A DNA stretch of 21,810 bases from a virus. Positions 1,902 to 21,594 of this stretch are shown piece after piece (the stretch's first letter is position 1; every line of letters begins with the position of its first letter). The position numbers were made by a program, and so were the translations under genes. The notes beneath the pieces were generated by a model. The model made no database searches. It was given only the letters and a program-made list of their open reading frames with translations, and was not told the origin of the DNA. The DNA lies in IMG/VR virus record IMGVR_UViG_3300035184_001680, positions 1 through 21,810 of that record, one strand, 5' to 3'.

Positions 1902-1917
1902 ATATTTATAATCAAAA
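1902..1917 (+). promoter_or_regulatory. Putative late promoter, copy 1 (ATATTTATAATNAAAA)
   Basis: First of three copies of a 16-base element identical at 15 positions. It contains a perfect TATAAT (1907-1912), preceded by an AAACTTAC leader that is partly shared with the other copies. It lies in the 33-base gap after the sigma gene, and the ATG of the next gene is five bases past its end. I read it as the -10 region of a late promoter recognised by the phage sigma factor. The T4 late box TATAAATA is similar but not identical. No host-type -35 is evident. Confidence 0.65.
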
Positions 1918-1922
1918 ATCAT

Positions 1923-2267
1923 ATGGGACAGTTAGAATCATTTGTTTTTGGCGATAAAACATTTTCAGATATACTTGAAGAAATTTATAATAACCAAAAA
2001 AGGAGGGATGCTCAAGTAGTAGCCCTTATATCTGAATTAAAACCTTTAATTAAGGAATTAGGAGATGCCACACTTATAGTACCTCTTATTAAGGAGTATA
2101 TGGAGATAGGTGTGAAAAATGACGAAGCTTTAATTAAAATGGCAACTATAGTTCAACGAGCACTTCAAAATGTAAATGATGATGGGGGGTTTGGAATTTC
2201 TGATGAAGAGAAAGATCAACTTTTAGCTGAAATGGATAAACTCCAAATAAAATCTAAGGATGCCTAA
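1923..2267 (+). CDS. Small helical protein preceding the gp5-like spike gene, 114 aa
   Basis: Family not recognised. It is an acidic, almost entirely helical protein. Residues 18-60 and 85-112 have heptad-like hydrophobic spacing (ALISELKPLIKEL, LIVPLIKEYMEIG, DQLLAEMDKLQIK), so it may oligomerise or act as an assembly chaperone. There is no signal peptide or membrane segment. It is the first gene after putative late promoter copy 1 and overlaps the spike gene by eight bases, so translation of the two is likely coupled. A role in assembly of the central baseplate hub is a guess from position only. Confidence 0.8.
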   Translation: MGQLESFVFGDKTFSDILEEIYNNQKRRDAQVVALISELKPLIKELGDATLIVPLIKEYMEIGVKNDEALIKMATIVQRALQNVNDDGGFGISDEEKDQLLAEMDKLQIKSKDA

Positions 2268-3489
2268 ACAAAGAACAGGTTTATCATCATTAAACCCCAC
2301 TCAATCTACAAAATCTATTCCCTTAAACATATTCCCAGCTAGGGTAACTATGACAATTTTGGACAATACGACAGAAAGAGAAGCTTTTCAAAATTTTGGA
2401 GAGTGGAGTTCAATTGGTAGTCTATTTTTTTCAAAGCTTAACAGTCCTAATCCCAGTAAAAAATTTACAACTGATAATTTTGCCAAACCTCTATTTCCTA
2501 ATACCTCTAATATACCCTTACATAATGAATTAGTATATGTTATGGCTTTACCTAATAGTAATGTTCAATCTGATGTTAATGATTTAACTTATTATTATTT
2601 CCAAGCTATTAATATTTGGAATAGCACTCACCATAACGCAATTCCTGATCCTATTAATAATAGTTCTTTACCATCTTCTCAAACCCAAGACTATGAGCAA
2701 ACCTCAGCGGGGTCTGTAAGAAGAGTTACAGATGGGGGTACAGAAATTGAATTAGGTAATACATTTCAAGAAAAAATATCTATTCGTAATTTACAACCTT
2801 ATGCCGGGGATATAATACATCAAGGGAGATGGGGTCAATCTCTTAGATTTGGGTCTACTGTTAAAGAAACCCCAATCCCTAATACTTGGTCAACATCTGG
2901 GGAAGATGGTGATCCTATAACAATATTAAGAAATGGGCAGTATGAAGGAGATACAGAACCTTGGATCCCACAGGTAGAGGATATTAATGATGATGCTTCA
3001 AGTATGTGGTTAACTAAAAACCAAAAAATACCAATTAATGTATCAACTCGAACATATAGATCATATCAAACCCCACCAGAATCCCCTAATTTATTTACAG
3101 GGGAACAAATACTCTTAAATTCCGGTCGTTTAATTTTTAATTCTAAGACAGATTCAATTCTTCTAAGTGCTAAAAAAACAATAAATTTAAACTCTGTTGA
3201 TAGTGTCAATATTGATTCACCTCTAACTGTAATCCAATCACCCACAGTTTTATTAGGTGATAAAAATGCAACTGAGCCTATAATATTAGGTGATACATTT
3301 CTATCTGATTTCTCATCATTGATGTCTTCTTTAGTAACTTTATGCCAGCAATTACAAGTACCTATGGCTTTAGCATCACTTCAACCTCATGCGGGTTTGC
3401 CTACCCCGGCAACTCAAACCCTTACAAAAGCTCAAAACATGATTAACAGAATAAATAATTATAAATCAAAAGTAAGTAAATCTAAATAA
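2260..3489 (+). CDS. 5: Baseplate central spike / hub protein, gp5-like without lysozyme domain, 409 aa
   Basis: Likely forms the trimeric membrane-piercing spike at the centre of the baseplate. Residues about 20-200 look like an OB-fold region carrying long insertions; its last strands include LQPYAGDIIHQGRWGQSLRF, a pattern seen in phage gp5 and Mu gp45-type spikes. Residues about 280-345 show short repeating strands with spaced hydrophobic residues (QILLNSGRLIFNSKTDSILL, then KKTINLNSVDSVNID), typical of the intertwined beta-helix of such spikes. A helical C-terminal tail follows (345-400). T4 gp5 is 575 residues with an internal lysozyme domain; none is visible here. The ATG at 2260 overlaps the preceding gene by eight bases, and the stop shares one base with the next start (TAATG). 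The spike assignment rests on fold pattern and position next to gp25 and gp6 genes. Confidence 0.78.
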   Translation: MPKQRTGLSSLNPTQSTKSIPLNIFPARVTMTILDNTTEREAFQNFGEWSSIGSLFFSKLNSPNPSKKFTTDNFAKPLFPNTSNIPLHNELVYVMALPNSNVQSDVNDLTYYYFQAINIWNSTHHNAIPDPINNSSLPSSQTQDYEQTSAGSVRRVTDGGTEIELGNTFQEKISIRNLQPYAGDIIHQGRWGQSLRFGSTVKETPIPNTWSTSGEDGDPITILRNGQYEGDTEPWIPQVEDINDDASSMWLTKNQKIPINVSTRTYRSYQTPPESPNLFTGEQILLNSGRLIFNSKTDSILLSAKKTINLNSVDSVNIDSPLTVIQSPTVLLGDKNATEPIILGDTFLSDFSSLMSSLVTLCQQLQVPMALASLQPHAGLPTPATQTLTKAQNMINRINNYKSKVSKSK

Positions 3490-5276
3490 TGTCTTATTTA
3501 ACTAAACTAGCATTTTCAAAAGGTACAGAGGTAATTAAGGTTGCTACTAATATGGAAATTTCTATTCAAAATTTAATAGAAAAATTTAGAAACGAATGCC
3601 CTCCTAAAGAAGACTTACTTCAAATAGTAAAACAAAAAAACCAAATTCAAGAAGGTTTAGAACAAGTTGTATCAGCCTTTGACGCTGTAAATACTGTAGC
3701 TGTAACAACTGGTACATTAGTTGATACGATTTCTATAGCTGTACAAATTATTAAAGCAATTCCATTCCCAACTTCAACTCCCCCTGGATTAGGTGTCCCA
3801 ATTAATGTTCTTACTCTTCTTTCAGACTCTTTAGATAAATTAGGATTTTTACTAAGACAAACTAAGGGTGCAGTATCAGTAGTCCCTGTTATTACTAGAC
3901 AAATTACTGATTCAGCCTCTATTATAATATTAAAACTACAAGAATTAGACGTTCTTTTTAGTACGTGTTTAGAGGAGTCCTTAAATAATGCAAATATGGA
4001 ATGGGATCCTGAGTTTAATTATACTGAAAAGGATTCTTGCATTTATGAAAGAAAACCATATGCTTCAAAAATAAACAATAATTTAAATTTACAACCTAAT
4101 TTAAACCCCATAGCCTGGCAGTTAACTACAATGGCTAGTATTAGGGAAAATTTAGCTGTAGAAATAGGTAATGTAGTAGCAACTTCTGGAAACTTTGATG
4201 ATGACTTAACTAATGTTGAAGATGAACAGGCGTTATTAGCTCAATTGAGTGCAAACTCAAAAGAAGCTTACATTTATAAAGGTTTTAGATTTGAACTTCA
4301 ATATGAACAATATAATCAATTTTCCTTCCCATCTAGAAGAATTTTTATTAAGTTTGAAAGCGATGACACTCAAGAAGTATATTTTGGTCTTTCTTTTTAT
4401 AATTTAAAAAATAGCGTTTATTCTTATAGTAACTCTGTTAAAATTTTGGTAAATGAGGCTAAATTTAGGGTTGATAATCTTAATTATGATTATTGGTGGA
4501 ATAGGTGGAATGATCGCCAATTAGCATTACTCGAAGGTCTTACAGAAGAAGTAGAAATAATAGAAACCGAAATAGGAAATGAAACAACTTCATCACTACC
4601 ACCCACAAATAATACTAATACAGGTACTGAAGATAATAGTAATCCTCCTAATTACCCATTTGCTATTAAATTAATAAAACAGCCATGGTCAAATTGGAAT
4701 AATTTAGGTAGTACAGATGCTAATTTCCAAAGAAAGATGTATGGTCCTAATCCTTATAAAACAGTTCCTTTTAGTCTTGATATTGGAAAATCCTTACAAA
4801 AAAGTGCATATAGGGCTAATGTTAATGGTTTAAGTGATTTTGGGGGTATGAATGCAAGTAGTAGTATAAGGTTAAAAGCAGATGTAAAAGTCCCAGGCAC
4901 TGTAATAACCTTTAGAGTAGATACTGGTAGGTTTACCCCAAATAATATATCAGGAGCTTATCCTACCACTTGGGGAACATTTAGACCAGGGATAGATAAT
5001 GAATATGTTAGAGGTAAAGTAGATGTAAAAATTAATGCAGCATCAGGTTCGGAATATCAAAATATCAAATTATTAACCGTTCAAGAAGGAGTCAAAAATT
5101 ATTCTTTTACATATCCTGAAGCTGGTATATATTATATTGAGGCTACAATTTGGGAGGGTAATAAATATAATGATGTTAATGGTATTCCTTTTAATAATTA
5201 TAACTTCCTTAATGAGACTGCAATCAATGCCAACCAATCAGCTTCTTTAATCATATCCTATGAAAATCAACCTTAA
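3489..5276 (+). CDS. Putative virion structural protein of the baseplate cluster, 595 aa
   Basis: No family recognised with certainty. Residues 1-170 are mostly helical with long hydrophobic stretches (65-95 and 104-160, e.g. VVPVITRQITDSASIIILKL). These could be buried amphipathic helices, and the Pro/Gly-rich segment at 91-105 breaks them. Residues 255-335 are beta-rich with aromatics (YIYKGFRFELQYEQ, YDYWWNRWNDR). A low-complexity linker of Thr, Asn, Pro and Gly spans about 366-389. Residues 390-595 look like a beta-sandwich (SIRLKADVKVPGTVITFRVD), perhaps a carbohydrate-binding or Ig-like domain. It shares the base at 3489 with the spike gene and ends its presumed transcription unit, followed by a 64-base gap holding the second putative promoter. 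Position between gp5-like and gp25 suggests a tail or baseplate component; hub (gp27-type) is possible but unproven. Confidence 0.82.
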   Translation: MSYLTKLAFSKGTEVIKVATNMEISIQNLIEKFRNECPPKEDLLQIVKQKNQIQEGLEQVVSAFDAVNTVAVTTGTLVDTISIAVQIIKAIPFPTSTPPGLGVPINVLTLLSDSLDKLGFLLRQTKGAVSVVPVITRQITDSASIIILKLQELDVLFSTCLEESLNNANMEWDPEFNYTEKDSCIYERKPYASKINNNLNLQPNLNPIAWQLTTMASIRENLAVEIGNVVATSGNFDDDLTNVEDEQALLAQLSANSKEAYIYKGFRFELQYEQYNQFSFPSRRIFIKFESDDTQEVYFGLSFYNLKNSVYSYSNSVKILVNEAKFRVDNLNYDYWWNRWNDRQLALLEGLTEEVEIIETEIGNETTSSLPPTNNTNTGTEDNSNPPNYPFAIKLIKQPWSNWNNLGSTDANFQRKMYGPNPYKTVPFSLDIGKSLQKSAYRANVNGLSDFGGMNASSSIRLKADVKVPGTVITFRVDTGRFTPNNISGAYPTTWGTFRPGIDNEYVRGKVDVKINAASGSEYQNIKLLTVQEGVKNYSFTYPEAGIYYIEATIWEGNKYNDVNGIPFNNYNFLNETAINANQSASLIISYENQP

Positions 5277-5324
5277 ATTTTTTAACTGAAATAAAAGTAA
5301 ACATACAAAAAATTAACTAACTTA

Positions 5325-5340
5325 ATATTTATAATAAAAA
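5325..5340 (+). promoter_or_regulatory. Putative late promoter, copy 2, abutting the start codon
   Basis: Second copy of the 16-base element, with TATAAT at 5330-5335 and an AACTTA leader. It ends at the base immediately before the ATG at 5341. With normal -10 spacing, transcription would begin at or within the start codon, giving a leaderless mRNA. The next in-frame methionine is about 60 residues on, past a conserved-looking helix, so the annotated start is probably right. It would drive the long unit 5341-18290. Confidence 0.65.
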
Positions 5341-5703
5341 ATGAAGTCAACAGAATTAAAAATCTTAATAAAATCAGCCGTAAGAGAAGCAATTCAAGAA
5401 GAATTGAAAGATATCTTATTAGAGGCTGTTAAGACTCCTCAAGTTTTACAACACCCAACCACAACACATACCCCAATTGTAGAGAATGTTCTTACTACTA
5501 ACTCTAATCCCCCATCTCCGAGCATGAGTGCTGAAGATAAAAGGGAGGCGTATAAAAATATTTTAGGTGATACAGCAGCATCTTTTAATTCAAGTAATGT
5601 CCCTCAAGGTTTTCAACCCAAACCTGGGTTTGATTCATCTAACGGAACTTTACCTGGTGGGGAAGTTGATATGTCCCAAATATCACAATTAATGAAAAGA
5701 TAA
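5341..5703 (+). CDS. Small protein with amphipathic N-terminal helix tag, 120 aa
   Basis: Function not known. Residues 3-30 form a charged amphipathic helix (LKILIKSAVREAIQEELKDI). Similar short Lys/Arg/Glu helical starts occur on many proteins of marine T4-like phages, as I recall. Residues 32-60 are a Thr/Pro-rich disordered stretch, a short helical segment sits at about 64-75 (SAEDKREAYKNILGD), and the rest is Gly/Pro/Ser-rich, ending in a small helix (MSQISQLMKR). There is no catalytic motif. It is the first gene behind putative promoter copy 2 and lies three bases before gp25, so it is probably made in step with the baseplate wedge and may be a minor virion or assembly protein. Confidence 0.78.
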   Translation: MKSTELKILIKSAVREAIQEELKDILLEAVKTPQVLQHPTTTHTPIVENVLTTNSNPPSPSMSAEDKREAYKNILGDTAASFNSSNVPQGFQPKPGFDSSNGTLPGGEVDMSQISQLMKR

Positions 5704-5706
5704 AAA

Positions 5707-6114
5707 ATGGCACGAATATTACAAAACAGATTTCCCATTGACTCAGTTGCTAGAAAAGCGGTTGGGTTTGGTTTTCCTTTAAATGGTCCTGCTGTTTTTG
5801 TGCCTACATATACAACTCGAGAACAAACAAAAGCAAACTTAATTAATTATTTATTAACCAATAAGGGTGAAAGGGTATTTAATCCTAACTTTGGAGCTGA
5901 TTTAAGAAATTTATTATTTGAAAATATTTTAAATCGTACAACAGACGAATTACAAGAAATAATACAAAATGATATAAATTTATACTTCCCTCAAGTTATT
6001 ATAAAACAAATTCGATTCGACAATCAACCTGATATTAATACAATTAATTTTTCCTTAACATATACAATATTAAATTTTGGGATAACCGATGATATAACTA
6101 TATTACTACAATAA
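5707..6114 (+). CDS. 25: Baseplate wedge protein gp25, 135 aa
   Basis: A wedge subunit of the contractile-tail baseplate of the gp25/GPW family, with a lysozyme-like fold but a structural role. It contributes to the core bundle that joins wedges and contacts the sheath. The diagnostic block is at residues 50-71, with LTNKGERVFNPNFGADLRN followed by LLFE; the conserved start TREQTKANLINYLL precedes it at 37-50. Length matches T4 gp25 (132 residues). The C-terminal part alternates beta strands (VIIKQIRFD, INFSLTYTI), as expected. It starts three bases after the preceding stop, in an A-rich leader without Shine-Dalgarno, and its stop shares one base with the gp6 start (TAATG). Confidence 0.93.
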   Translation: MARILQNRFPIDSVARKAVGFGFPLNGPAVFVPTYTTREQTKANLINYLLTNKGERVFNPNFGADLRNLLFENILNRTTDELQEIIQNDINLYFPQVIIKQIRFDNQPDINTINFSLTYTILNFGITDDITILLQ

Positions 6115-7976
6115 TGGCAGATTTAAAAAGAGACATAAGGTATGTTGATAAGGATTTTAACCAGTTTAGAAATTCCTTAATACAATATACAAAAACATAT
6201 TTTCCTAATACTTATAATGACTTTACAGATACTTCTACAGGTATGCTGTTTATGGAAATGACATCTTATGTTGGGGATGTTTTATCATTCTATCTAGATA
6301 ATCAAATACAAGAAACTTTTATCCAAAAAGCAAGACAGCAAGAAAATTTATACCAGATGTCTTACTTGTTAGGTTATAAGCCAAAAGTTACAACAGCAGC
6401 TTCTGTGAATATAGACTTCTACCAACAACTCCCAGCATCACAATCTGCAGGTGCATATGTTCCGGATTTTAATTATTCCATGATAATTCCTGAAAATACC
6501 CAAATAACTTCTAATTTAAATAGTACACAAAACTTTTTAATAGAAGATGTAATTGACTTTTCAGCCTCAGGTTCTCTGGATCCTACAGAAGTTACAGTTT
6601 ACCAAATATCAAATGGTAACCCAACATATTATTTATTAAAAAAGACTAGAAAAGCAATTTCTGCTACAATTAATTCAATACCTTTTACATTTGCAGCTTC
6701 TAAGCGGTATGATACAAGAACACTCGTAAAATCCAATATTATAGGCGTATTAGACGTGGTAGATACTGATGGCAATACTTGGTATGAAGTACCAAATATG
6801 GCGCAGGAAAACGTATTTGATACGATACGAAATACTAATCAAAATGATCCAACATTTAATAAAGAGGCGGATGCTCCCTACTTACTTAAACTAAAACAAG
6901 TTCAAAGGAGATTTGTTACTAGATTTATAAACTCTGGAAGTTTAGAATTTCAATTTGGGGCAGGTTCAACTCGAAGTAATGATGAGGAGATAGTTCCTAA
7001 CCCTGATAATGTAGGTTTGGGTTTACCTTTTGAAAGAGACCAATTAACAACCGCATTTTCACCATTAAACTTTATATTTACTAATACTTATGGTATTGCC
7101 CCTTATAATACTACTTTAAATGTAAGATATTTAACTGGTGGGGGTGTCGCATCTAATGTTGAAGCCGGAACCTTAACAGTTTTAAACGATACTAATTTTA
7201 AATTTATTAATCCAAACTTATCTAATACATCATTAGCAAACCAAATTTTCTCTTCTATCTCATCTAATAACCCTTTAGCTGCAGATGGAGGTCAAGATGG
7301 GGACACAACAGAAGAATTAAGATTAAATGCTGTAGGAAATTTCCAAAACCAACTTCGTACTGTAACCAAAGAAGATTATTTAATTAGAGCTCTATCAATG
7401 CCCTCTAATTTAGGAACTATAGCTAAAGCTTATGCCCAGCCTACTAAGATAGGTGAATTTAACCCTGGTGAATTACCAACAATGTTAGATTTATATGTTT
7501 TAACTTATGATGCAAATTCAAATTTAAGAACAGCTTCTTCTTTAATGAAGGCAAATCTTTCAACTTATTTAGCTGAATATAGAATGATAAATGATTCAAT
7601 TAATATCAAAGATGCCTTTATTATTAATATAGAAGTAATATTTGATATAATAGTATTGCCTAACTATAATAATAACGAAACTATTACTAAATGTATTACA
7701 TCCTTACAAAACCAATTAAATACTGATAGATGGCAGATAAACCAACCAATTTTATTAAAAGATTTATATATTCTTTTAGATAAAGTAGAGGGGGTTCAAA
7801 CTGTAAAAAATGTAGTAATTAATAATTTAACTGGAGATGCTTTAGGTTATAGTGAATACGCTTATGATATAGCAGGTGCTACATTAAATGAAGTAGTTTA
7901 CCCATCTATAGATCCTATGATTTTTGAAGTTAAATACCCAAAAGAAGATATTAAAGGTAGAGTAGTACCCCTATAA
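6114..7976 (+). CDS. 6: Baseplate wedge protein gp6, 620 aa
   Basis: A principal wedge protein of T4-type baseplates; dimers of gp6 link adjacent wedges into the inner ring. The N-terminal block is strongly diagnostic: DLKRDIRYVDKDFNQFR (3-19), TKTYFPNTYNDF (26-37), STGMLFMEMTSYVGDVLSFY (41-60) and LLGYKPK (85-91). A baseplate-J-like core appears at about 389-440 (GGQDGDTTEELRLNAVGNFQ, then LRTVTKEDYLIRAL). Length is near T4 gp6 (660). It is separated by 12 bases from the next gene. The stop region CTATAAATAA contains a T4-like TATAAATA, which I do not accept as a promoter because the same octamer also occurs inside other genes here. Confidence 0.94.
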   Translation: MADLKRDIRYVDKDFNQFRNSLIQYTKTYFPNTYNDFTDTSTGMLFMEMTSYVGDVLSFYLDNQIQETFIQKARQQENLYQMSYLLGYKPKVTTAASVNIDFYQQLPASQSAGAYVPDFNYSMIIPENTQITSNLNSTQNFLIEDVIDFSASGSLDPTEVTVYQISNGNPTYYLLKKTRKAISATINSIPFTFAASKRYDTRTLVKSNIIGVLDVVDTDGNTWYEVPNMAQENVFDTIRNTNQNDPTFNKEADAPYLLKLKQVQRRFVTRFINSGSLEFQFGAGSTRSNDEEIVPNPDNVGLGLPFERDQLTTAFSPLNFIFTNTYGIAPYNTTLNVRYLTGGGVASNVEAGTLTVLNDTNFKFINPNLSNTSLANQIFSSISSNNPLAADGGQDGDTTEELRLNAVGNFQNQLRTVTKEDYLIRALSMPSNLGTIAKAYAQPTKIGEFNPGELPTMLDLYVLTYDANSNLRTASSLMKANLSTYLAEYRMINDSINIKDAFIINIEVIFDIIVLPNYNNNETITKCITSLQNQLNTDRWQINQPILLKDLYILLDKVEGVQTVKNVVINNLTGDALGYSEYAYDIAGATLNEVVYPSIDPMIFEVKYPKEDIKGRVVPL

Positions 7977-7988
7977 ATAAAAAATAAT

Positions 7989-8441
7989 ATGTCAGATTCA
8001 TTAATAGATAGCTTTAACAAAACAAACCTAGATACTCAAAACTCTGAGCCTTCTGGAGGTCCTATAAATTCTCCTCAATATAATTTTGAAACTAAATATT
8101 CATCTACAGACCCATATTTTATACCCGGAACACAGGCCCAAGAATCAGTATTAAGTCAATCATTAACTGTAACGGCTTTAGATGTAGAAAGTAATGAAGC
8201 TGGTGTCCCTCAAGGAGGTTCAGGTGGTCCTAATAGAACAAATTCTCCAAATATTCCAAGTGGTCAGTATAAAGCTATTGGTTCCTCCCCTTTACCATTA
8301 TCCCCATCACCTGGAGGCTCTGCTATTAAAACTAGAGAAGGTAGTGAAAAGGATTTTACTTTAAATGCTTACACTCCTCAAAATACTTACATGCAAACTA
8401 TGATTAAATTTAGGGATGAAGCTAAAAACAAATTAATATAA
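7989..8441 (+). CDS. Low-complexity, probably disordered protein in the baseplate cluster, 150 aa
   Basis: Not recognised. The sequence is dominated by Ser, Pro, Gly, Asn and Thr: PSGGPINSP (22-30), GVPQGGSGGPNRTNSPNIPS in the middle, then SSPLPLSPSPGGS. This implies an extended or disordered chain rather than a compact fold. The only helix-forming part is the C-terminus (YMQTMIKFRDEAKNKL), which could be a docking segment. It is sandwiched between gp6 and a DNRLRE-like protein gene with 12- and 6-base gaps, so it is co-expressed with the wedge. A linker, chaperone or minor baseplate protein is possible. Composition matches its neighbours, so I regard it as a real gene. Confidence 0.78.
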   Translation: MSDSLIDSFNKTNLDTQNSEPSGGPINSPQYNFETKYSSTDPYFIPGTQAQESVLSQSLTVTALDVESNEAGVPQGGSGGPNRTNSPNIPSGQYKAIGSSPLPLSPSPGGSAIKTREGSEKDFTLNAYTPQNTYMQTMIKFRDEAKNKLI

Positions 8442-8447
8442 TAAACA

Positions 8448-9593
8448 ATGGCTATATATAAAATATTTCCTGAAAAAGATGCTACCTTATATACTGAATT
8501 TCCAACCCAAAATACAGGGTTAGATCAGATTATAGAATCATCTATGTATCTTGCTAATTCGGTACCTCAAGTTAGTAGATATTTAATTAAATTTCCTACA
8601 TCTCAAATTACAGAAATGTATGAAAATAAAATTACAAATGGGGAATATGCAGTTTACTTAAGAAATTTTAATGCTGTTGTAACAGGTCTAAACTCAGACC
8701 AAAAGTTAGAATTTTACCCAACATGGGGTAATTGGGATATGGGTACTGGTAGATTTAATGATCAACCTATAGTAACAAATGGTACAAGTTGGACATATCT
8801 AAAATATTCAGGATCAACCTCTTGGGAAGAAAGTGGTTTTGATCCTTATGTAACAGCATCATTCCAATCTACCTTACCAGGTGGTGGTAATTGGTATACA
8901 GGTTCAAACATACCTAGCCTAAATCCCGTTATATCAACTCAAAGTTTTAACTATTCGGATACTAAAGATGTTGTAGTTGATGTAAAAAATACAGTTGAAA
9001 CTTGGTATAGTTATTCATTAGATAATACTAAAGGTTTCCCCAATGAAGGATTTATAGTAAAAAACCCTGATAATGTTGAATTTATAAATAGTAAATCAAA
9101 TACAACAATATTTAGATTCTTTTCAATAGATACAAACACAATATACCCCCCACAATTAGAATTTAGATTCAATGATTATGTGTTTAATACAGGATCATCA
9201 ACCAATAAAATATTACCACAAGTAGAGAGTTTTATTTCAATATATAATAATAATGGCACTTACTATTCTCAAAGTATACCTAGATTAAGATTTGCAGCAA
9301 TGCCTAAATACCCAGATAGAACATTCTTAACATCTTCTTTATATACAACTAACTACTTCCTCCCAGAATCACAATCATTATATGCCATAAAAGATACAGA
9401 GACTAATGAATTTGTAATTGATTTTGATAATGAATATACTAGAATAAGCTCAGACTACTCATCAAGTTATTTTGATTTATATTGTAATGGTTTAGAACCT
9501 GAAAGGTATTATACTATTTTAGTTAAAACCTCCATAGGGGGCGTTGTTAAAGTTTTTGATGAAAATATAATGTTTAAAATAGCTAAAGGATGA
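8448..9593 (+). CDS. Baseplate-cluster protein with DNRLRE-like N-terminal domain, 381 aa
   Basis: Residues 5-242 follow the layout of the DNRLRE beta-sandwich known from secreted and surface proteins. It opens with an Asp-containing strand and Asn-Thr-Gly turn (IFPEKDATLYTEFPTQNTGL). A segment SRYLIKFPTSQI where the family has its conserved arginine/phenylalanine strand follows, then Trp-rich strands (FYPTWGNWDMGTG). The VKNTVETWYS...NEGFIVK block is next, and the domain closes on PPQLEFRFND. Residues 250-381 look like a second beta domain. There is no signal peptide, as expected for a virion protein. It may occupy the place of a T4 gp8-type or accessory wedge protein, but I see no direct gp8 similarity. 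Adhesion to host polysaccharide is an attractive inference only. Its stop overlaps the next start by four bases (ATGA). Confidence 0.82.
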   Translation: MAIYKIFPEKDATLYTEFPTQNTGLDQIIESSMYLANSVPQVSRYLIKFPTSQITEMYENKITNGEYAVYLRNFNAVVTGLNSDQKLEFYPTWGNWDMGTGRFNDQPIVTNGTSWTYLKYSGSTSWEESGFDPYVTASFQSTLPGGGNWYTGSNIPSLNPVISTQSFNYSDTKDVVVDVKNTVETWYSYSLDNTKGFPNEGFIVKNPDNVEFINSKSNTTIFRFFSIDTNTIYPPQLEFRFNDYVFNTGSSTNKILPQVESFISIYNNNGTYYSQSIPRLRFAAMPKYPDRTFLTSSLYTTNYFLPESQSLYAIKDTETNEFVIDFDNEYTRISSDYSSSYFDLYCNGLEPERYYTILVKTSIGGVVKVFDENIMFKIAKG

Positions 9594-9985: not shown

Positions 9986-9995
9986 TAGTAAATAA

Positions 9996-12900
9996 ATGGC
10001 AGAAAAACCAAAAAATCCCAGAGATAAAAAACTTCCACCATCAAAGTTTGTAGACGCCCAAAAAGGTAATAATCAACCTGTTTTTATAGAGGCTAACAGA
10101 AATTTCCTCAGTGATGTTAATATTCCTGTAAGTGCTTCAGTAGTATCAGTATCTCCAAGGGATATAGTATCGGATAGTTTTATAACATTAGAAGATACCG
10201 CTATAATACCTAACTCAGGATTATCATCATCATTTCTTCCTAATGAAAATTTAGTTGAATTTTATGCTTATGATACTCAAAAGAATATTATTAGTAGGAA
10301 TTATAATTTTTTAAATTGGGGTATAACAAAAAATACAACTAACACAGAAGTCCCAACAACATTTACCGATAACCAAGGTATACAAATTCTTGAATCTGAC
10401 ACATCCCCAATTCCAACAGATTTTATTGAATTAAACCCTGCAACTGATCTTTATAATTTAGGATTTGATGCTGGTGAGACTTATGCCTTATATAATTTTA
10501 TAAATTATGAATTAGGTTCATCTGTAGAGGATACATACTACATATCCGAAATATCAGGTGACCGAACTGAAATTAAATTAAGATCTAATACAATATCTGA
10601 TAGAGATATTAGAAGTACCTATAAGAAATTTCGCCAAAAATTTAACTCTCAAAAATATTTTGATGAATTTTATCTTGGGTTATTTGATAATAGATATGAA
10701 ATTTGTACTAATATTCTTCTTGAAAGAGATGGTAAAGGTGAATCACTTCTTATTAAGTTATATAACGAACTTGATCCTTCAATTTTAGCAGAATCCCAAG
10801 TTTACTTAATTACTAAGGTAGGGGAAACTGTATCTTATAAAGTAGAATTTGAAGAAGATTATCAATCTTTTGTAGATAACGCTACATATATTAAAGGTCC
10901 TAATATTAATATCCCATTACAAGATTTAGTTAATAACTCAACAACACTTAAATCCCAAAACAACTTACTAGATTCAAACTCCTCAGAATCTGTAAATGCT
11001 GTATTAAACATATTAAACCAAACAGGTGTAACAATAACCCCAGATTATTCATACAACACTTTTGATCAATTTATTAATTTCTCTTCTGCTAAAGAAAGAT
11101 TAAATAATTTTATTGAAAAAGTAACAGAACTTCAATCATATGAATCTGACATTTCTACTATTGAAAATGTAACAGGTTCTAACCCTGGAGTAGTAGCAAT
11201 TTCATCAAGTTTAGCTAGTTTAACTACCAAAGTATCAAACTTAATTGAAAATTTTGATGGGTACGAAAACTATTTATATTATAAATCATCATCTTATGCC
11301 TACCCTAAAACAGGCTCAGCTTATCCTTATACTTTACTCCCAACAACAGACCAAGCTGTAATAGATTGGATAGGTAGTGATGTAGAGGGATCTCAATATT
11401 ATGGAGGTTATGTATTATCTGCTTCTTTATATGATGAAAATAACCAAAATTGGTTATATTATACTATCCCTGAATTTATAAAAGAAAATTCAAGTAATGA
11501 TGAATATATTACTTTTTCAAATATGGTTGGTCAATCTTTTGATGAAGTTTGGCTTTATACAAAAGCCTTAAGTGAAAGATATAATACAACAAATGACCCT
11601 GATAAAGGGTTACCTCTAGATTTAGCTGCAGATGCAATTAAGGGTTTAGGGTTTGAAACTTTTGGAAATAATTATGACAATCAAGATAATTTTATAGGTT
11701 TAGCTGGTGAAGATAATGGGACTTATGTGCCCCCAACAGGTAGTGAATTAATTACTAAATATGTTGCTATAAATAACGGACAAATTATTAATTATTGGAG
11801 TGTTGGTTATTCTTGGGAGGATTATGTAGAACAGTTTATAGAAGCAGGTTTCCCGTATGCCATTGATAAAGTAAGTAAAGAAATTTATAAACGTCTTTAC
11901 CATAATATGGCTTACCTTACTAAGAAAAAAGGTTCGATTTCAGGTTTAAGACAACTAATTAATATTTGGGGTATCCCTAATACAATCCTTCGTATTAATG
12001 AATTTGGAGGTAAAAATAGAGATAATACTGATGATTATGATTTGTGGCAGAATAGATATAGCTACGCCTATACCCCCATATCAGCAGGCTACCACTTGGC
12101 AAGTTCATCTATTAAAGTACCGTGGATGCCTTTAGAAAGAAACTATATTGCTGAGACGGAAAACATAGTCCCAGATGGGGTTGCTCTTAGATTTAAAGCT
12201 CCCAAAGGTGCTCCTATTTCAACTTTTGGTGGGTCTTTTTATAGCCAATCAATTGCAGTTAAGAAATCAAATGGTACCGCTAACTCCCAAATGGATTGGG
12301 GTATTAGTTTATTTTATGAAGACCAACCATCAGGATCATATAGCGGTTCAAGTTTTAGCGATTACTACAATTATGGTAAATTAAGATTTTATATGTCAGC
12401 CTCAACAGCTGATGGTGGGGTTCAAATTTCAAACGATATTTACCTTCCATTCTTTGATGGCGGTTGGTGGAGTGTTTTACTTCAAAGAGATCAACACATA
12501 GGGTATACTGATAATACAGTTCCTACGACTTATACATTATTTGCGGCCAATAAACAATCTAATGGCTGGGATGGTAATTCAATAGGATTTACAGGATCGG
12601 TAAGTATGAATTCCACTACAAAACTTTCTATAAATAAATCTTGGAATGATTTTGGAGTTACTGAGGTTGATGGGGTTTACATTGGAGGTTATATATCAGG
12701 TTCAAATATAATGTCTGAAGTATCTAATGATTTTGGTAAAATATTTTCCGGATCCTTTCAAGAATTTAGATATTATTCAAATGATATTCCTAGAACTGTT
12801 TTTAATGATTTTGTAATGAATCCTGAATCCATTGAAGGTAACAATATTACAGGATCCGAAAGTTCATTTGACATAGTAAATTTTAGGGCACCTTTAGGTA

Positions 12901-15900
12901 ATGAATTAGAAAATATATTCTCAGGATCATCAACTACCTTTACCGACCAAATTTCCTCATCTCACCCTGCAATTACAGGTTCAGCAACTGTAGTAATTAC
13001 AGGCTCTTTTAGAAACCCCGCAGATAGTACTATAACTTCAAGTTATAATTTTATAGGGTATAATGATTCAAAAGATAAAATTTATAGTAAACCAAATACT
13101 GAAGTTTATTTTTTAGATCAACCTTCAATTGGGATAAGAAACAGAGTATCAAAGAAAATTAAAGTAGAAGATGGTAGTGTTTATGGTAAGGTACTATCAC
13201 AATATAAAAGTATAGACCAAGATTATTTAATTAGTCAAAGTTACACTGAAGATATTACAAGTTTAGAAGTAGGATTTTCACCCCAAGATGAAGTTAATGA
13301 TGATATTATTGCTTCATTTGGGTATGGGGTAATCTCTTCAGTTATAGCGGATCCAAGATTCTTTTATGATTCACAGGAAGTTTATTATCCTAAACTAAGA
13401 CAAATATCAGAGGAGTATTTTAAAAAGTATACCGAAGGTAGTGTTTGGGATTATATAAGATTAATTAAATATTTTGATAATTCACTATTTAAGGCTATTA
13501 AATCATTTGTACCTGCGCGTACTAGCGTGACTACAGGCGTTATAATTAAACAAAATATGTTGGAGCGCAATAGGCGCCCATCAGTATTAATTAACCCAAA
13601 TACTATAATAGCATACACACCAGAAACAGGTTCTGTGGTTGGTGGTCAATCAACAGAAACCGGATTTAATAGTGCTATTTCCTATAGGGATTTAGAATTA
13701 ACAGGTAGTATTAATATAGGTACTCTAAGTGGCTTACATGGTAATGTTCCCCCAAATTTAAGAGGAGAAGTATCAGCTAGTGGTGCTGGCTTTAACATCA
13801 TCCCTATAACTCAAAGTTGGACGGGAAGTTATGATACTGTATTGGGTTTAATTCCATTTACAGACTCATCATCTTATGAATTTTATAATGGGGAATATAG
13901 TGGAAGTACAATAGTAGTAACTACCCAATCCCTACTTAATAATCCTTTTGCTTTAGCACCTGTTTTAGATACTAATTATACTGTTAATGTCACCTCTAGT
14001 GAAGGTAAATTTAGTGAAACATTAAATAGTACTATAAACACATACCCATCATTTTCATTTAATTTACAAGCATTTTCATATGGTTCCTTATCTAGTGACC
14101 CCGCAGGTAAAACTACATTCCAAGGAGATTTTGATAGTTGGGGAACTGGTAATACTGTTGGGGATTCTACAGGTTCTATTTTTATAGCCCAAGATGACCC
14201 AAACTCGGGGACAAACTGGCAGAGTAGGTTTTATATAATTGGTTTAATACTCCCTCAGAGAATGCGATTGAAGAACTCGGGGGTAGTATCAACAAATAAT
14301 GCCGGGAATCATTTAGGCATAAATTATACCCCTGGATTTAGTGGAGGTTATAGTGCCAATCAACCTGACTTTAGCCTTGCTAATCTTATAACCCTTCCAT
14401 CTTCCCCAACATCTGGGTCAGGTTTAATAGGTCTTGAAACTGGAGATTATATACCTAATGATATTGGTCCTTATTTTAAATTAGATATAACAGGTTCCAT
14501 GAATAGCTTTTATGCTGATCCAAATAATACTCCTGTAGTACCAACAACAGAATCAGTATATGATGAAAAGAACTACCCAATTACCGAGTGGCAAAATAAC
14601 CAATTACCAACACCAGGTGCAAGCTTAATCGCAACAGTCTCACCTCCAGGCCCTAATACAGGAACTAAGTATTACAGCGATTCATTTCCTTCTACTTTAA
14701 ACTCAAATTTACGTTCAGTCCAATGGAAAAGAAAAGCTAGTTTAGGGCTTATAGATATTGAAGATACTGATGAATTAATATATGCAAATAATTTTGATTT
14801 TGCAGCCTCAGATTTACAATCACCATCATCTTTTAGATTTACTTTAGTTAATAGTACAAATAATGATAAAAATACTACTTTAAATTTAAACATGACTGAG
14901 ATGCAGTCTTACAATGTCCAGAATGGTCTTGGAGATCCTTGGAGTACAGTAACCCTACCTTTATCTTTATTTGCCCCTTCAGGATCTACTTTTGATAGTT
15001 ATAAATATGATACAGTTCAAATTCAATATGATATTAGATCTAACTCTATTGCTACCCCAACAACAGAATCAATATATGATGAAGATAACTACCCAACTAC
15101 CGAGTGGTTAAATAACCAATTACCATCAGGTGCAAACATAGCCGCAACAACTTCACCTCCAGGCCCTAATACAGGAACTAAATATTACAGAGATTCTTTT
15201 GCTTCTACTTTAAACACAAATATACGTTCAGTCCAATGGAAAAGAAACCCTAGTGAAGGGACTATACTTCTTGACCAATCTGATGAATTAATATATGCAA
15301 ATAATTTTAACTTTGCTGCAAATGATATACAAAACGGCTCATATTTTAAATTTGCTCTAGTTAATAGTACAAATGGTGAAATATATGCTACTCCAACTTT
15401 AGACATGTCTAATATGCAGACTTATAACGTCCAACCCGGTCTTGGAACTAGTTGGAGTACAGTAACCCTACCTTTTAACCTATTTGCAGCTTCAGGATCC
15501 ATAGCGGGTGATTTTTACTATGATACATTTCAAATCCAATATAATATTTTATCTGCCTCTCGTCAAGGTCAAACTGTTAATTTAGATACTTTACGTATTC
15601 AATTTAATGGTGGTGCCCCTCCAGATCAAACTTTTAATTTAGATACTTTACGTATTCAATTTAATGGTGGGGGTGTTCCTCCAACCGACTTTCCAGATGG
15701 TGTTGGTTTTGATACAGATGATAACTTTGGAGGTTTAGATACTAATGAAATAATTTCAAGAGTTATAGGCCCTAACACAACCATTACAAGAACCCCAGGT
15801 CAAACTGGTACTACAAATGGGGAAGGTCTCGTTAAGTATCTTATAGGTTCCCCTCAAAATAATAATGCTAGACCTATTAGACTTTATGATAAAGCAACTA

Positions 15901-18290
15901 ATAATGCAGCTAATATCCCTTGGAATAGTGCCCAGCAACCCTTTACAGGTTCATCAACATCTACAGTATTTATATCAAATTATGATACTGAAATAGAAAG
16001 ACAAAGAGATGCCTTTGCAGTTGCACCTCAAAAACCTAACTCCCTTCCTTTAATAGGTAGTGGTAGTTTAAGTTTAGTAGGAACAACTTGGACAGGTTCT
16101 TATAGTGATCATGGTGATTGGTTTCCATCCCTATTATTATTTAATAGAAGAAATTATGATACTTTAACAGGGGATTTAATAAATAATACTGAAACTTTCA
16201 CTCAATTTCCCCAATTTCAATTTACTATAGATGGGTTTACTGGAACTCCATACCTCCCACCTGTAATATTTAAACAATCTAATAATGATATAAGTGGATT
16301 ACTATCATATAATTCAGGTACATTTACTATCCCCTTCGAAAATGATGCAATAGCATATTCATATGTTCCTGCTACAAGTACCTTTCTTAGTGGATCTCCA
16401 TTTACATCTACTCCTCCTGGAATGTTTATACCTAATTTAGCATCTAACCAATACATATCCTTTGATCCTCAACTTCCACTTCAATCGGATTTTTATAATA
16501 CCCCATTTAATCCTTTAATTAATAATGCAACAGAAAGTGTTAAAAATACATATGTCCAAGTAGTAGAATATGATAATGGCCCTATACCTTCTAACTTTGA
16601 CCCTATAGTTAGTAGAACAGCTTTAAAAGCAAGAATACCTGATAGTTTTTACACTCAAAAAGCATCTATTCTTCCAAGATATTTAGGAAGTACCTTACAA
16701 AGTGCAAATTATAATACTTATACTTTACCTGGAAATATTACATTTTTAAATGCTTTCTTTACCGGTAGTACTATTACAGGATCTACGTGGGATGGTGATG
16801 TAAGTTTCGGAAAAACATCAGTAATTGATGTAAACCCAATATACATGGCCCATTTTAAAAATTCAAAAGAAAATTATGAATTGTTTGGTTCCTATACTTT
16901 TAGAATTGATTCTTTAATTGAAGTTCCTCTAGAAGATGTAACTGGGGGGAAAGCTCCAATAACCCCTATGGTTCTAAAAGTTGATGGGAGTAATGCAAAC
17001 TTAGCAGAAGTTAGAAGTTCATTTGAAGTTAATAGAAGTGCTAGTATTGCTTATAACTCTTCTAAATTTAGAGGGGTTAAGTACTCATCCTTAAAGGTAG
17101 GAAGTGGTAAAATATTTCAAGGAGCGATGGAATATCAAACTATATTTACAACACAACCTAACCCAACATCCTTTATCAACACCGCTAGTTTTATTACTTC
17201 TAGTTGGGTTGATTTTCGATTTGCTATATCAGAATCTTCGTCAACTACTACAGCAAACTCTAATGTTTTATTATTACCAGAATCTAATGTTACACCCAGT
17301 GGTACCTCATCATCACTAGGCGAAGTATTTTCAATATCAAGTTCAGGAGCATGGTTATCCACAGGTAGTAATGCATTATATTTTAGAGGGGGTTATACCC
17401 GTACTATACAAAACATGATGCCAAATGAAGATGCCGCTGAAGGTAGTACTGCTATAGAAGCAGGTTCTGGAAGATTTTATGGGAGTAGTTTAGCTATGAT
17501 TCACAATTATAACAAATATAGTGAAAACAAAATAGTAGCAACTGGGTCTTTATATTCATATGTGCAATCAACTAATAGCGGAATATCAAAACCAGGAACA
17601 CCCTCAGCATCATTCTTCCAGTTTGATAATGAAGAAATTTATTCATATCTTGAATTTTCGGGTTCAAATGATGGTGCCTTACCATCTTCATCAAATTTAC
17701 TCCCTTATGAAGATTTTAACCAACAATTTTTAGTAGAAGTTGGTGATGAAGTTAGAGTAACATATAATATTGCAGTTGTCCCTTCGGGTACAGTAGGAAG
17801 AACAACAACAACCCCAAGTGTTGGGAATCCTACATTCCACACTGAAACATTTACTGTTGTAAGTGCCGAAGGTAATACAGATTATGAAAACGAAATATAT
17901 CCATTCGAAATGTCTGCTTCCATATTTACAACCCAAATTTCAGAATCTGGTGGGGGTAATATTATCGTAAATACACCAATAACTGAATCTCAATATAATT
18001 ATGATAAATTAATAGTTTACCCAGACCCTTCAACTGTACAACCACCAATAATTGATGGTGATATTTTTAATTTTACAATTAGAAGAAGAATAAATGCTGA
18101 TGATAGAGTTGTTGTATACCAATCCCCACCCTCAGGTTCAAAGGGTGTAGAAACTATATCTGGAGATGGTTATATCATTCCAGATGATTTTTCATCACAA
18201 CAAAAACGAAATGCGTTAACTTTAATTAATCAATTAACAGCTAAAAATGCTTTTCGTGCATCAGAAGACCCCCCAAGTTTAAAAGAATAA
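9996..18290 (+). CDS. Giant modular baseplate/tail protein with gp7-like conserved blocks, LamG-like domain and internal duplication, 2764 aa
   Basis: The largest gene in the window, probably a peripheral baseplate wedge or tail-fibre-like virion protein. T4 gp7 is only about 1030 residues, so this is at most a greatly extended counterpart. Visible blocks: a Pro/Lys-rich start; FINFSSAKERLNNFIEK near residue 360; a helical block at about 632-675 (LYHNMAYLTKKKGSISGLRQ, then IWGIPNTILRINEFGGK); and a LamG/concanavalin-like beta domain at about 728-950 (GVALRFKAPKG, GGWWSVLLQRD, GSFQEFRYYSND). A second conserved block lies at about 1150-1190 (WDYIRLIKYFDNSLFKAI, SFVPARTSVTTGVIIK). A variable Ser/Thr/Gly/Asn-rich region (about 1200-2250) follows, holding two repeats. 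A beta-rich end begins near 2262 (DVNPIYMAHFKNSKENYELF). The gp7-like blocks are recalled from large phage structural proteins; order after gp6 supports that reading. TGS/SGS tripeptides are frequent throughout. The leader is A-rich with no Shine-Dalgarno. Confidence 0.85.
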   Translation: MAEKPKNPRDKKLPPSKFVDAQKGNNQPVFIEANRNFLSDVNIPVSASVVSVSPRDIVSDSFITLEDTAIIPNSGLSSSFLPNENLVEFYAYDTQKNIISRNYNFLNWGITKNTTNTEVPTTFTDNQGIQILESDTSPIPTDFIELNPATDLYNLGFDAGETYALYNFINYELGSSVEDTYYISEISGDRTEIKLRSNTISDRDIRSTYKKFRQKFNSQKYFDEFYLGLFDNRYEICTNILLERDGKGESLLIKLYNELDPSILAESQVYLITKVGETVSYKVEFEEDYQSFVDNATYIKGPNINIPLQDLVNNSTTLKSQNNLLDSNSSESVNAVLNILNQTGVTITPDYSYNTFDQFINFSSAKERLNNFIEKVTELQSYESDISTIENVTGSNPGVVAISSSLASLTTKVSNLIENFDGYENYLYYKSSSYAYPKTGSAYPYTLLPTTDQAVIDWIGSDVEGSQYYGGYVLSASLYDENNQNWLYYTIPEFIKENSSNDEYITFSNMVGQSFDEVWLYTKALSERYNTTNDPDKGLPLDLAADAIKGLGFETFGNNYDNQDNFIGLAGEDNGTYVPPTGSELITKYVAINNGQIINYWSVGYSWEDYVEQFIEAGFPYAIDKVSKEIYKRLYHNMAYLTKKKGSISGLRQLINIWGIPNTILRINEFGGKNRDNTDDYDLWQNRYSYAYTPISAGYHLASSSIKVPWMPLERNYIAETENIVPDGVALRFKAPKGAPISTFGGSFYSQSIAVKKSNGTANSQMDWGISLFYEDQPSGSYSGSSFSDYYNYGKLRFYMSASTADGGVQISNDIYLPFFDGGWWSVLLQRDQHIGYTDNTVPTTYTLFAANKQSNGWDGNSIGFTGSVSMNSTTKLSINKSWNDFGVTEVDGVYIGGYISGSNIMSEVSNDFGKIFSGSFQEFRYYSNDIPRTVFNDFVMNPESIEGNNITGSESSFDIVNFRAPLGNELENIFSGSSTTFTDQISSSHPAITGSATVVITGSFRNPADSTITSSYNFIGYNDSKDKIYSKPNTEVYFLDQPSIGIRNRVSKKIKVEDGSVYGKVLSQYKSIDQDYLISQSYTEDITSLEVGFSPQDEVNDDIIASFGYGVISSVIADPRFFYDSQEVYYPKLRQISEEYFKKYTEGSVWDYIRLIKYFDNSLFKAIKSFVPARTSVTTGVIIKQNMLERNRRPSVLINPNTIIAYTPETGSVVGGQSTETGFNSAISYRDLELTGSINIGTLSGLHGNVPPNLRGEVSASGAGFNIIPITQSWTGSYDTVLGLIPFTDSSSYEFYNGEYSGSTIVVTTQSLLNNPFALAPVLDTNYTVNVTSSEGKFSETLNSTINTYPSFSFNLQAFSYGSLSSDPAGKTTFQGDFDSWGTGNTVGDSTGSIFIAQDDPNSGTNWQSRFYIIGLILPQRMRLKNSGVVSTNNAGNHLGINYTPGFSGGYSANQPDFSLANLITLPSSPTSGSGLIGLETGDYIPNDIGPYFKLDITGSMNSFYADPNNTPVVPTTESVYDEKNYPITEWQNNQLPTPGASLIATVSPPGPNTGTKYYSDSFPSTLNSNLRSVQWKRKASLGLIDIEDTDELIYANNFDFAASDLQSPSSFRFTLVNSTNNDKNTTLNLNMTEMQSYNVQNGLGDPWSTVTLPLSLFAPSGSTFDSYKYDTVQIQYDIRSNSIATPTTESIYDEDNYPTTEWLNNQLPSGANIAATTSPPGPNTGTKYYRDSFASTLNTNIRSVQWKRNPSEGTILLDQSDELIYANNFNFAANDIQNGSYFKFALVNSTNGEIYATPTLDMSNMQTYNVQPGLGTSWSTVTLPFNLFAASGSIAGDFYYDTFQIQYNILSASRQGQTVNLDTLRIQFNGGAPPDQTFNLDTLRIQFNGGGVPPTDFPDGVGFDTDDNFGGLDTNEIISRVIGPNTTITRTPGQTGTTNGEGLVKYLIGSPQNNNARPIRLYDKATNNAANIPWNSAQQPFTGSSTSTVFISNYDTEIERQRDAFAVAPQKPNSLPLIGSGSLSLVGTTWTGSYSDHGDWFPSLLLFNRRNYDTLTGDLINNTETFTQFPQFQFTIDGFTGTPYLPPVIFKQSNNDISGLLSYNSGTFTIPFENDAIAYSYVPATSTFLSGSPFTSTPPGMFIPNLASNQYISFDPQLPLQSDFYNTPFNPLINNATESVKNTYVQVVEYDNGPIPSNFDPIVSRTALKARIPDSFYTQKASILPRYLGSTLQSANYNTYTLPGNITFLNAFFTGSTITGSTWDGDVSFGKTSVIDVNPIYMAHFKNSKENYELFGSYTFRIDSLIEVPLEDVTGGKAPITPMVLKVDGSNANLAEVRSSFEVNRSASIAYNSSKFRGVKYSSLKVGSGKIFQGAMEYQTIFTTQPNPTSFINTASFITSSWVDFRFAISESSSTTTANSNVLLLPESNVTPSGTSSSLGEVFSISSSGAWLSTGSNALYFRGGYTRTIQNMMPNEDAAEGSTAIEAGSGRFYGSSLAMIHNYNKYSENKIVATGSLYSYVQSTNSGISKPGTPSASFFQFDNEEIYSYLEFSGSNDGALPSSSNLLPYEDFNQQFLVEVGDEVRVTYNIAVVPSGTVGRTTTTPSVGNPTFHTETFTVVSAEGNTDYENEIYPFEMSASIFTTQISESGGGNIIVNTPITESQYNYDKLIVYPDPSTVQPPIIDGDIFNFTIRRRINADDRVVVYQSPPSGSKGVETISGDGYIIPDDFSSQQKRNALTLINQLTAKNAFRASEDPPSLKE
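14541..15560 (+). repeat. Two-copy in-frame tandem duplication, 516-bp period, within the giant gene
   Basis: Unit 1 spans 14541-15056 (172 codons, residues 1516-1687) and unit 2 spans 15057-15560 (168 codons, residues 1688-1855). Both begin PTTES(V/I)YDE and end at (Q)IQY(D/N)I. By hand count about 65% of residues are identical. Identical runs include SPPGPNTGTKYY, RSVQWKR, DELIYANNF and WSTVTLP, and the matching DNA keeps long identical stretches. The units abut directly, with a one-residue gap and small end differences. The period is a multiple of three, so the frame is kept. The unit is beta-rich and probably one domain. Confidence 0.93.
15570..15670 (+). repeat. Short tandem repeat, 57-bp period (44-base copies, one mismatch)
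   Basis: Copies at 15570-15613 and 15627-15670 match at 43 of 44 bases and encode NLDTLRIQFNGG twice, separated by a short Pro-containing spacer (APPDQTF). The offset of 57 bases is 19 codons, preserving frame. It sits immediately after the second unit of the 516-bp duplication. The near identity points to a recent slippage or recombination event. Confidence 0.95.
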
Positions 18291-18320
18291 TATAGCTTGG
18301 AGTAAAAATAAAATTAACGT

Positions 18321-18336
18321 ATATTTATAATTAAAA
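18321..18336 (+). promoter_or_regulatory. Putative late promoter, copy 3
   Basis: Third copy of the 16-base element, with TATAAT at 18326-18331 and an ATTAACGT leader. It lies in the 57-base gap after the giant gene, 11 bases before the ATG at 18348. Distances from element end to start codon in the three copies are 5, 0 and 11 bases. This variable spacing argues for a transcription signal rather than a ribosome-binding signal. Confidence 0.65.
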
Positions 18337-19031: not shown

Positions 19032-19043
19032 ACATAAAATAAT

Positions 19044-20159: not shown

Positions 20160-20162
20160 TGA

Positions 20163-21569: not shown

Positions 21570-21594
21570 AAAAACCTTTCATATATTACTATAT

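Follow-up and report, generated by a model that had tools for sequence, protein, structure and literature searches.

A conserved AT-rich element before virion genes as the very probable late promoter in a widespread clade of T4-related phages

The late promoter of phage T4, in the passages of PMC2988020 and PMC7892883 that describe it, consists of one AT-rich box resembling a -10 element, has no clear -35 element, is followed by an AT-rich segment, stands before virion genes and is served by a phage protein with a sigma-2 region. According to the in silico comparison in PMC2988020, in its part on late promoters, the late boxes of KVP40, 44RR and S-PM2 are highly similar to that of T4, and Aeh1 carries a/gC at -13/-12; the same part of this T4 review asks why no fused late sigma has turned up in nature. 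The T4-like Microcystis phage Ma-LMM01 is said to lack gp55 and gp33, and its in silico late motif, WTNNANN16-22TATTMT, is read as SigA-like in the relevant part of PMC5780444. The promoter of flavobacterial sigma-A, as given in passages of PMC6847099 and PMC9723704, has TTTG at -33 and TAnnTTTG at -7; in these passages, leaders exceed 10 nt in 87% of the predicted transcripts of F. johnsoniae, and 5.5% of the mRNAs of F. psychrophilum are leaderless. Among the titles and abstract beginnings of the matches listed, none offers a precedent for the box described below or for late promoters of flavobacterial phages, a scope that mostly excludes subscription literature, excludes the immuto genome paper and is not proof of absence.

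The DNA analysed here, referred to as the window, is a stretch of 21,810 bases from an IMG/VR virus record, with about 32% GC and long genes all on one strand. Matches to PHROGs include a gp25-like baseplate protein, a gp6-like baseplate wedge protein and a SegE-type GIY-YIG endonuclease (coordinates in Table 1), as well as a phosphohydrolase-like protein at 10-783 and, weakly, a primase at the right edge; the tRNA scan of the window found none, and the Rfam scan at the gathering threshold found no family. The 2,764-aa ORF of the window, for which neither PHROGs nor Pfam gave a match at the thresholds applied, aligns with an orthologue of 2,722 aa in G002, a complete 164-kb relative, and of about 1,265 aa in immuto. 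Of the named phages, Flavobacterium phage immuto is the nearest by gp6 (45%), followed by Microcystis phage Mel-JY01 (44%) and the uncultured LR756508 (36%). Sequences of the Shine-Dalgarno (SD) type precede 9/198 genes in G002 and 8/222 in immuto, vs 69/241 in Mel-JY01. This scarcity, together with the relationship to immuto and the type of early promoter described below, indicates that the hosts are probably Flavobacterium-like bacteria.

The initial annotation had placed a 16-base element at three gene starts on the coding strand, and its exact coordinates were confirmed: ATATTTATAATNAAAA occurs at all three on the + strand with 0 mismatches to the N-containing pattern (Table 1). No further exact copy exists on either strand of the window, and 300 order-2 Markov shuffles yielded a mean of 0.007 copies and a maximum of 1 (both strands together). 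When up to three mismatches to the 16-mer are allowed, the window contains 29 matches vs 17.1 expected, so that the exact copies alone stand out clearly. Copies 1 to 3 lie in gaps of 33, 64 and 57 nt, and the remaining gaps between structural genes measure at most 12 nt; the earlier description of these as the largest gaps is thus correct within the structural block, although a 38-nt gap just outside it (21557-21594, before the primase-like gene) exceeds the gap of 33 nt. The core of the element is shorter than the 16-mer and comprises nine bases, TATTTATAA. The statement that no copy lies inside a gene holds for the 16-mer but not for this core, which is found antisense inside genes at 9082 and 14999, with no sign of function. 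The ORFs of the first proposed unit overlap, and the core has no internal + strand copy there.

Table 1. Coordinates of the features in the window; promoter assignments, start sites (+1) and unit extents are predictions.
Feature	Position	Strand	Description
Sigma-like protein, proposed late sigma	1077-1889	+	270 aa; sigma region-2 fold ~19-118; conserved C-terminal domain ~176-265
Putative late promoter, copy 1	1902-1917	+	core 1903-1911; predicted +1 ~1916; ATG 1923; exact match; 57/57 orthologues
Putative late promoter, copy 2	5325-5340	+	core 5326-5334; predicted +1 ~5339; ATG 5341, probably almost leaderless; exact match; 72/72 orthologues
Putative late promoter, copy 3	18321-18336	+	core 18322-18330; predicted +1 ~18335; ATG 18348; exact match; 13/13 orthologues
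Proposed late unit 1	1923-5276	+	three genes: 1923-2267, 2260-3489, 3489-5276; predicted extent
Proposed late unit 2	5341-18290	+	seven genes, including 5707-6114 (gp25-like), 6114-7976 (gp6-like) and 9996-18290 (2,764-aa ORF); predicted extent
Proposed late unit 3	18348-21556	+	three genes and the SegE-like GIY-YIG endonuclease gene 21098-21556; predicted extent
Probable early/host-type promoter	21559-21587	+	GTTGA at 21559, TTCATATATT at 21578-21587; before primase-like gene at 21595

The conservation of the core was assessed in the best 80 of 210 relatives by gp6, in which orthologues of the window genes were taken by protein match alone and the 45 nt upstream were examined; rows were dropped when the alignment fell short of the first 8 residues, when no ATG was nearby or when less than 45 nt remained to the contig end. 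Within these best 80 of 210, TATTTATAA precedes the orthologues of the three genes in 142/142 cases (98 distinct upstream sequences; counts per gene in Table 1) and those of the other window genes in 0/457, or 3/457 with one mismatch allowed. The control consisted of 12 other genes, one of them without a usable orthologue, and did not extend to the first gene, the gene for the endonuclease or the truncated last gene. As the orthologous sequences are related, they do not represent independent events, and the other genes of the same loci serve as the control. In addition, ATATTTATAANNAAA is present in 17/17 related longer records, some of which are near-copies of each other, always on one strand per record and with 0 in the reversed control.

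Enrichment upstream of genes was evident in both G002 and immuto: the core occurs in 23/201 gene-upstream windows vs 3/2,893 in-gene windows of G002 (Fisher p 3e-25), and in 15/217 vs 1/2,621 of immuto (Fisher p 2e-16). The simple ORF caller used assigns about 96% of G002 to coding sequence and places 201/202 called ORFs on one strand. Forward copies of the core are intergenic in 23/27 cases and inside genes in 4/27 in G002, where six reverse copies are found (4 intergenic); in immuto, 16/17 are intergenic and 1/17 lies inside a gene, with seven reverse copies (5 intergenic). With the preceding A included, the counts become 24 forward and 0 reverse in G002, and 8 and 0 in immuto. A matrix trained without immuto, whose training set holds a few sites from near-copies of G002, returned 17 forward and 1 reverse sites in immuto and 24 forward and 3 reverse in G002. 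De novo expectation maximisation on the upstream regions of G002 recovered two motifs, TTcgTATATTTA and TATTTATAAtnaAA; in immuto, the early motif was dominant and the late motif was not among the ten consensus forms shown. The lists of 24 late sites in G002 and 17 in immuto used below were compiled by hand, with three variant copies added (one in G002, two in immuto); copies inside genes and a single intergenic one of immuto (1337) were not taken up.

The consensus of 170 sites reads A(90%)-TATTTATAA-[TAC]-N-A-A-A-A, in which the nine core bases are fixed because the sites were selected on them. The A run that begins at the third base after the core forms an AT-rich downstream segment, and the first base 3' of the core is T in 42%, A in 29% and C in 28% of the sites. 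The letters TATAAT, pointed out in the initial annotation, therefore do not denote a sigma-70 -10 box, whose final T should be invariant, and the conserved unit is the core rather than the 16-mer. The AAC(T/G)TA-like flank described there also proved not to be general: the 24 G002 sites show little information at positions -8 to -2, except for a moderate T at -5. This flank and an A tract at -18 to -14 were considered as parts of the box; they appear in the pooled orthologue set and are weak within single genomes, for which shared descent is the likely explanation.

We take the T4 late box to be the 8-bp sequence TATAAATA. The corresponding part of the present element, TATTTATA, shares 6/8 positions with it on the same strand, in agreement with the earlier description of the two as close yet distinct, and is at the same time its exact reverse complement. 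G002 has only 8 forward intergenic copies of TATAAATA itself, 2 of them overlapping a late box, and immuto has only 7, with 3 such overlaps. The end of the core lies 5-20 nt from the ATG in 145/172 sites (range 0-38 nt, once 58). A T4-like placement of the box at -13 to -6 would put +1 on the A run, at the fifth base after the core, and would give a median leader of 5 nt; the ATG is less than 4 nt from the core, that is before or at this predicted start, in 8/172 sites. The alternative register TATAAnnA, in which the T4 box is aligned on TATAA, was rejected: it moves +1 to about 8 nt after the core and thus inside the gene at the 60/172 sites whose ATG is within 7 nt of the core. For this reason TATTTATA at -13 to -6 is preferred, as an inference and not a proof, since 51 of the 60 look like one gene family by their N-terminus.

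The genes behind the late box include the portal, the next head gene, the gene preceding head completion, the tail tube, the tape measure and the endolysin (followed by the holin), in addition to the three window units, among them the baseplate unit. Most genes behind the G002 box have no known function, with a PHROG match in 4/19 of those scanned, and several G002 late boxes sit in the early region. For the 163-type, portal, 197, 208 and tube genes, the exact box occupies matching positions in G002 and immuto (about 45% identical in gp6), and the positions also match for the 153-type and sheath genes, where one genome of the pair has a variant form of the box. Absence of the motif before capsid genes had been named as an argument against a late promoter, and it applies in part: neither G002 nor immuto has a box of its own directly upstream of the major capsid gene, which would rely on a promoter 4-5 kb upstream.

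A second class of promoters, of host type, precedes other genes, including the exonuclease, dpdA, folE and primase genes and many small genes of unknown function. Its motif in G002 is TTTGGA, whose end lies about 15 nt ahead of TTCGTATATT (25 forward, 0 reverse), and a related form occurs in immuto (16 forward, 0 reverse). This class (TTTGG...TATATTTA) roughly corresponds to the flavobacterial sigma-A promoter as given in the relevant passages of PMC6847099, apart from the last base. The consensus TTCGTATATT itself is absent from the window; the sequence at 21559-21587, however, resembles that preceding the primase gene of G002 at 94456, and this early-type sequence in the gap before the primase-like gene suggests that the promoter class switches at the edge of the structural block. 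Two further observations concern the early promoters of G002 (L084-L092). Their spacer between -33 and -7, TTTGGAGAAGC.A.G..., is unusually conserved (for example at 53355, 59944 and 66737), beyond what a host promoter needs, which makes an additional regulator or a role in RNA possible, and a G-rich stretch often lies downstream of the box.

The initial annotation had also identified a gp55-like sigma gene directly before copy 1, and both the fold and the homology of its product bear this out, the latter weakly. With Pfam Sigma70_r2, the window protein reaches E 0.014 (15.6 bits against a cut-off of 24), and 35/36 orthologues match when E up to 0.1 is allowed (best 2.1e-5); in genome scans this model finds the sigma gene alone in G002 and nothing in immuto. 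The late sigma family phrog_234, which contains T4 gp55, matches 19/36 orthologues (best 5e-4) and 14/37 of a second set, with no match to the window protein itself at E up to 0.1, and phrog_11747, of unknown function, matches more members (28/36). In genome scans, phrog_234 detects the sigma gene, and that gene alone, in G002 (E 1.6e-4) as well as in immuto (immuto35A_152, E 0.008), and nothing in Mel-JY01 and LR756508; the family also matches in 2/14 control genomes. Profile alignment with hhalign pairs residues 13-116 with residues 6-112 of eight gp55s (E 2.4e-4, probability 44%; E 7e-4 and 26% with a broader set), and T4 gp55 as a single sequence gave nothing useful against the sigma profile. 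In the AlphaFold model (mean pLDDT 64.5), residues 19-118 match sigma factors (best Z 9.6, 2.5 Å, 91 residues), which occupy nearly all the top rows of the structure comparison, although values of this size can arise by chance between helical folds. Foldseek alone gave no match at E ≤0.001, and the PDB sequence search none at E up to 1 or 10. These weak but concordant signals, from the sigma-2 fold and from gp55 homology, favour a gp55-like protein.

The conserved C-terminal domain (Table 1) extends beyond the sigma-2 part and is absent, by length, from the 185-aa gp55. No sigma region-4 Pfam model is found among the families of the 36 or 37 orthologues, the PDB sequence search with the C-terminal part returned seven unrelated weak rows, and no PDB fold is a convincing counterpart of the domain model (pLDDT 82); among 36 re-aligned chains the sigma-54 core-binding domain ranks first (Z 5.3, 72 residues, 3.1 Å). 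Comparison with T4 gp33 alone and with a set of seven gp33 gave no match (hhalign E 0.69 for the set). In the alignment, the extreme C-terminus is hydrophobic in the window clade and is not conserved in immuto. Upstream of the sigma gene, a small gene (780-1070 in the window) and the phosphohydrolase-like gene are found in the window, G002 and immuto, possibly forming a conserved regulatory cassette.

Relatives of this sigma are encoded by at least 590 stretches of IMG/VR, according to a scan with its profile. A second, partly overlapping set was drawn from these, comprising 80 of the at least 590 loci, some on contigs already among the gp6 relatives, and 71 had a readable gene. The exact TATTTATAA follows the sigma stop codon within 90 bases in 56/71, and 12 more have it at one mismatch, such as TATTTATAC and TATTTATTA; of the remaining three, L128 has two mismatches, L139 ends at a contig edge and L107 has an interrupted frame. 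The sigma orthologues of four immuto records and of Mel-JY01 are annotated as hypothetical protein only. Unrecognised orthologues were found in Mel-JY01, recorded from Microcystis (33%, L094:18764-19534), and in the 484-kb uncultured phage LR756508 (33.5%, 100294-100953). The longer pattern TATTTATAANNAA has 0 copies in either genome, and no common promoter-type k-mer was seen before genes in the 240,000 of 484,177 bases of LR756508 that were examined.

Compared with the T4 late promoter, as introduced above from passages of PMC2988020 and PMC7892883, the present system shares the single -10-like AT box, the lack of a clear -35 element, the AT-rich downstream segment, the position before virion genes and the phage sigma-2 protein. 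It differs in that the central AA of the box is TT, so that TATTTATAA does not contain the 8-bp TATAAATA, and in that the box has a conserved flanking A and a 3' AA-NN-AAA and mostly lies 5-20 nt before the ATG. The sigma is also larger than gp55 by its additional domain, and its gene adjoins baseplate genes. Neither gp33 nor a T4-type clamp was detected: PF02916, PF09116 and the bacterial PF02768 each matched 0/3 genomes, phrog_223, which does match T4 gp45, 0/4 genomes, and phrog_254, which does match T4 gp33, 0/4 genomes, with the reservation that a very divergent clamp could be missed and that gp33 is small and variable. Whereas Aeh1 alters the first two positions of the box, in the comparison given in that part of PMC2988020, the present clade alters two central ones. 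The likeness to Ma-LMM01, as that phage is presented in the relevant part of PMC5780444, is that of an in silico motif class before the late genes of a T4-like phage.

We conclude, in line with the initial proposal of a dedicated late promoter in a divergent T4-like phage, that the element very probably serves as late promoter in a widespread clade of T4-related phages whose hosts are probably Flavobacterium-like; the neighbouring sigma would be the protein that reads it. The comparative and genome-wide evidence strongly supports the late promoter and the gp55-like sigma; the link between sigma and box, the start site and the extents of the operons are what we infer from sequence. The box, (A)TATTTATAA-NN-AAA, stands on the coding strand ahead of virion and lysis gene starts, in most cases with no -33/-35 element. 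The phage sigma-2 protein, with its additional C-terminal domain, would replace the host sigma on the host RNA polymerase and melt the box, which would lie at about -13 to -6 like TATAAATA in T4. Transcription would then begin in the conserved A stretch, about 5 nt past the core, each promoter driving the polycistronic block that follows it in Table 1. The resulting leaders of about 0-15 nt would be tolerable, since these phages and flavobacteria do without Shine-Dalgarno leaders; they would be short even by flavobacterial standards, as far as the cited passages of PMC6847099 and PMC9723704 document these.

The competing explanation that the box is a promoter of the host RNA polymerase holoenzyme, with the main or an alternative flavobacterial sigma and perhaps a phage activator as in T4 middle transcription, appears improbable. 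It draws on the resemblance of ATATTTA to the TAnnTTTG of the -7 element, in the passage of PMC6847099 describing it, and to the phage early box TATATTTA. The T that would complete TAnnTTT, however, is not conserved (T at -2 in 35% of the 170 late sites), and C precedes TATTTATAA in 8/17 listed immuto sites. In G002, TTG is found in the -33 area of 20/25 early vs 2/24 late sites, with 32/201 in the control; the late sites of immuto have it in 5/17, which is not below the G002 control, so that immuto alone is less clear and lends this explanation some support. Unlike the flavobacterial sigma-A promoter as set out in that passage of PMC6847099, the late box does not show the TAnnTTTG spacing nor, in G002, a -33 element. 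Moreover, the only sigma-like gene that phrog_234 or Sigma70_r2 detects in G002 is that beside copy 1.

A role of the box in mRNA, as a translation-initiation enhancer or an RNA-processing site, is very improbable in our view. Its mostly short distance to the ATG, with an A run following, would be compatible with such a role, as A at -3 favours initiation in Flavobacterium (PMC6847099, passage on translation), but that distance is variable, and the box marks three window genes and none of the 457 orthologues of others in the best 80 of 210 relatives. Mel-JY01 is informative in this respect. ATATTTAT occurs there in 18/218 upstream windows vs 2 on the reverse strand, at a median of 34 nt from the ATG (20 intergenic sites pointing at a start), with an SD-like sequence in between in 14/20 sites of the list, read by eye. 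The portal, 163-type and tube orthologues have the core 34-40 nt upstream with an SD-like sequence, and the 197-type gene has it 17 nt upstream without one. The core thus keeps the same genes and its distance shifts with the mode of translation, which is promoter-like behaviour, and its location farther upstream, with the SD-like sequence between, argues against a translation signal. Even less credible is a T4-type late promoter read leftwards, with TATAAATA on the opposite strand giving antisense or bidirectional RNA: the reverse complementarity of TATTTATA fits it exactly, but the conserved extra bases and the A run are on the start-codon side, and since almost all G002 ORFs share one strand, RNA running leftwards would not express any late gene. 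Chance, or the AT-richness of a genome of about 32% GC, for which the count of near matches to the 16-mer (29 vs 17 expected) could be cited, has hardly any probability left, being refuted by the 142/142 vs 0/457 in the best 80 of 210 relatives and by the 17/17 one-stranded records with their reversed control of 0.

Beyond the late-promoter reading, we put forward only tentatively, and consider rather unlikely, that the 270-aa protein represents a naturally occurring late sigma in one piece, in which the C-terminal domain attached to the gp55-like sigma-2 part does the flap-holding job of gp33. The late promoters of the clade would then fire without gp33 and the gp45 clamp, hence without that coupling to replication, and yield nearly leaderless virion mRNAs. 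If this is true, the protein would be a candidate for the fused late sigma asked about in the part of the T4 review cited above (PMC2988020). As a cultured relative exists, Flavobacterium phage immuto, the late-promoter reading is testable. The predicted early and late units amount to a first transcription map for a group of aquatic phages that is common but has been little characterised. They suggest how a T4-type late box may change and yet keep its position at the same virion genes, and that the spacing between box and start codon may follow the translation habits of the phage.
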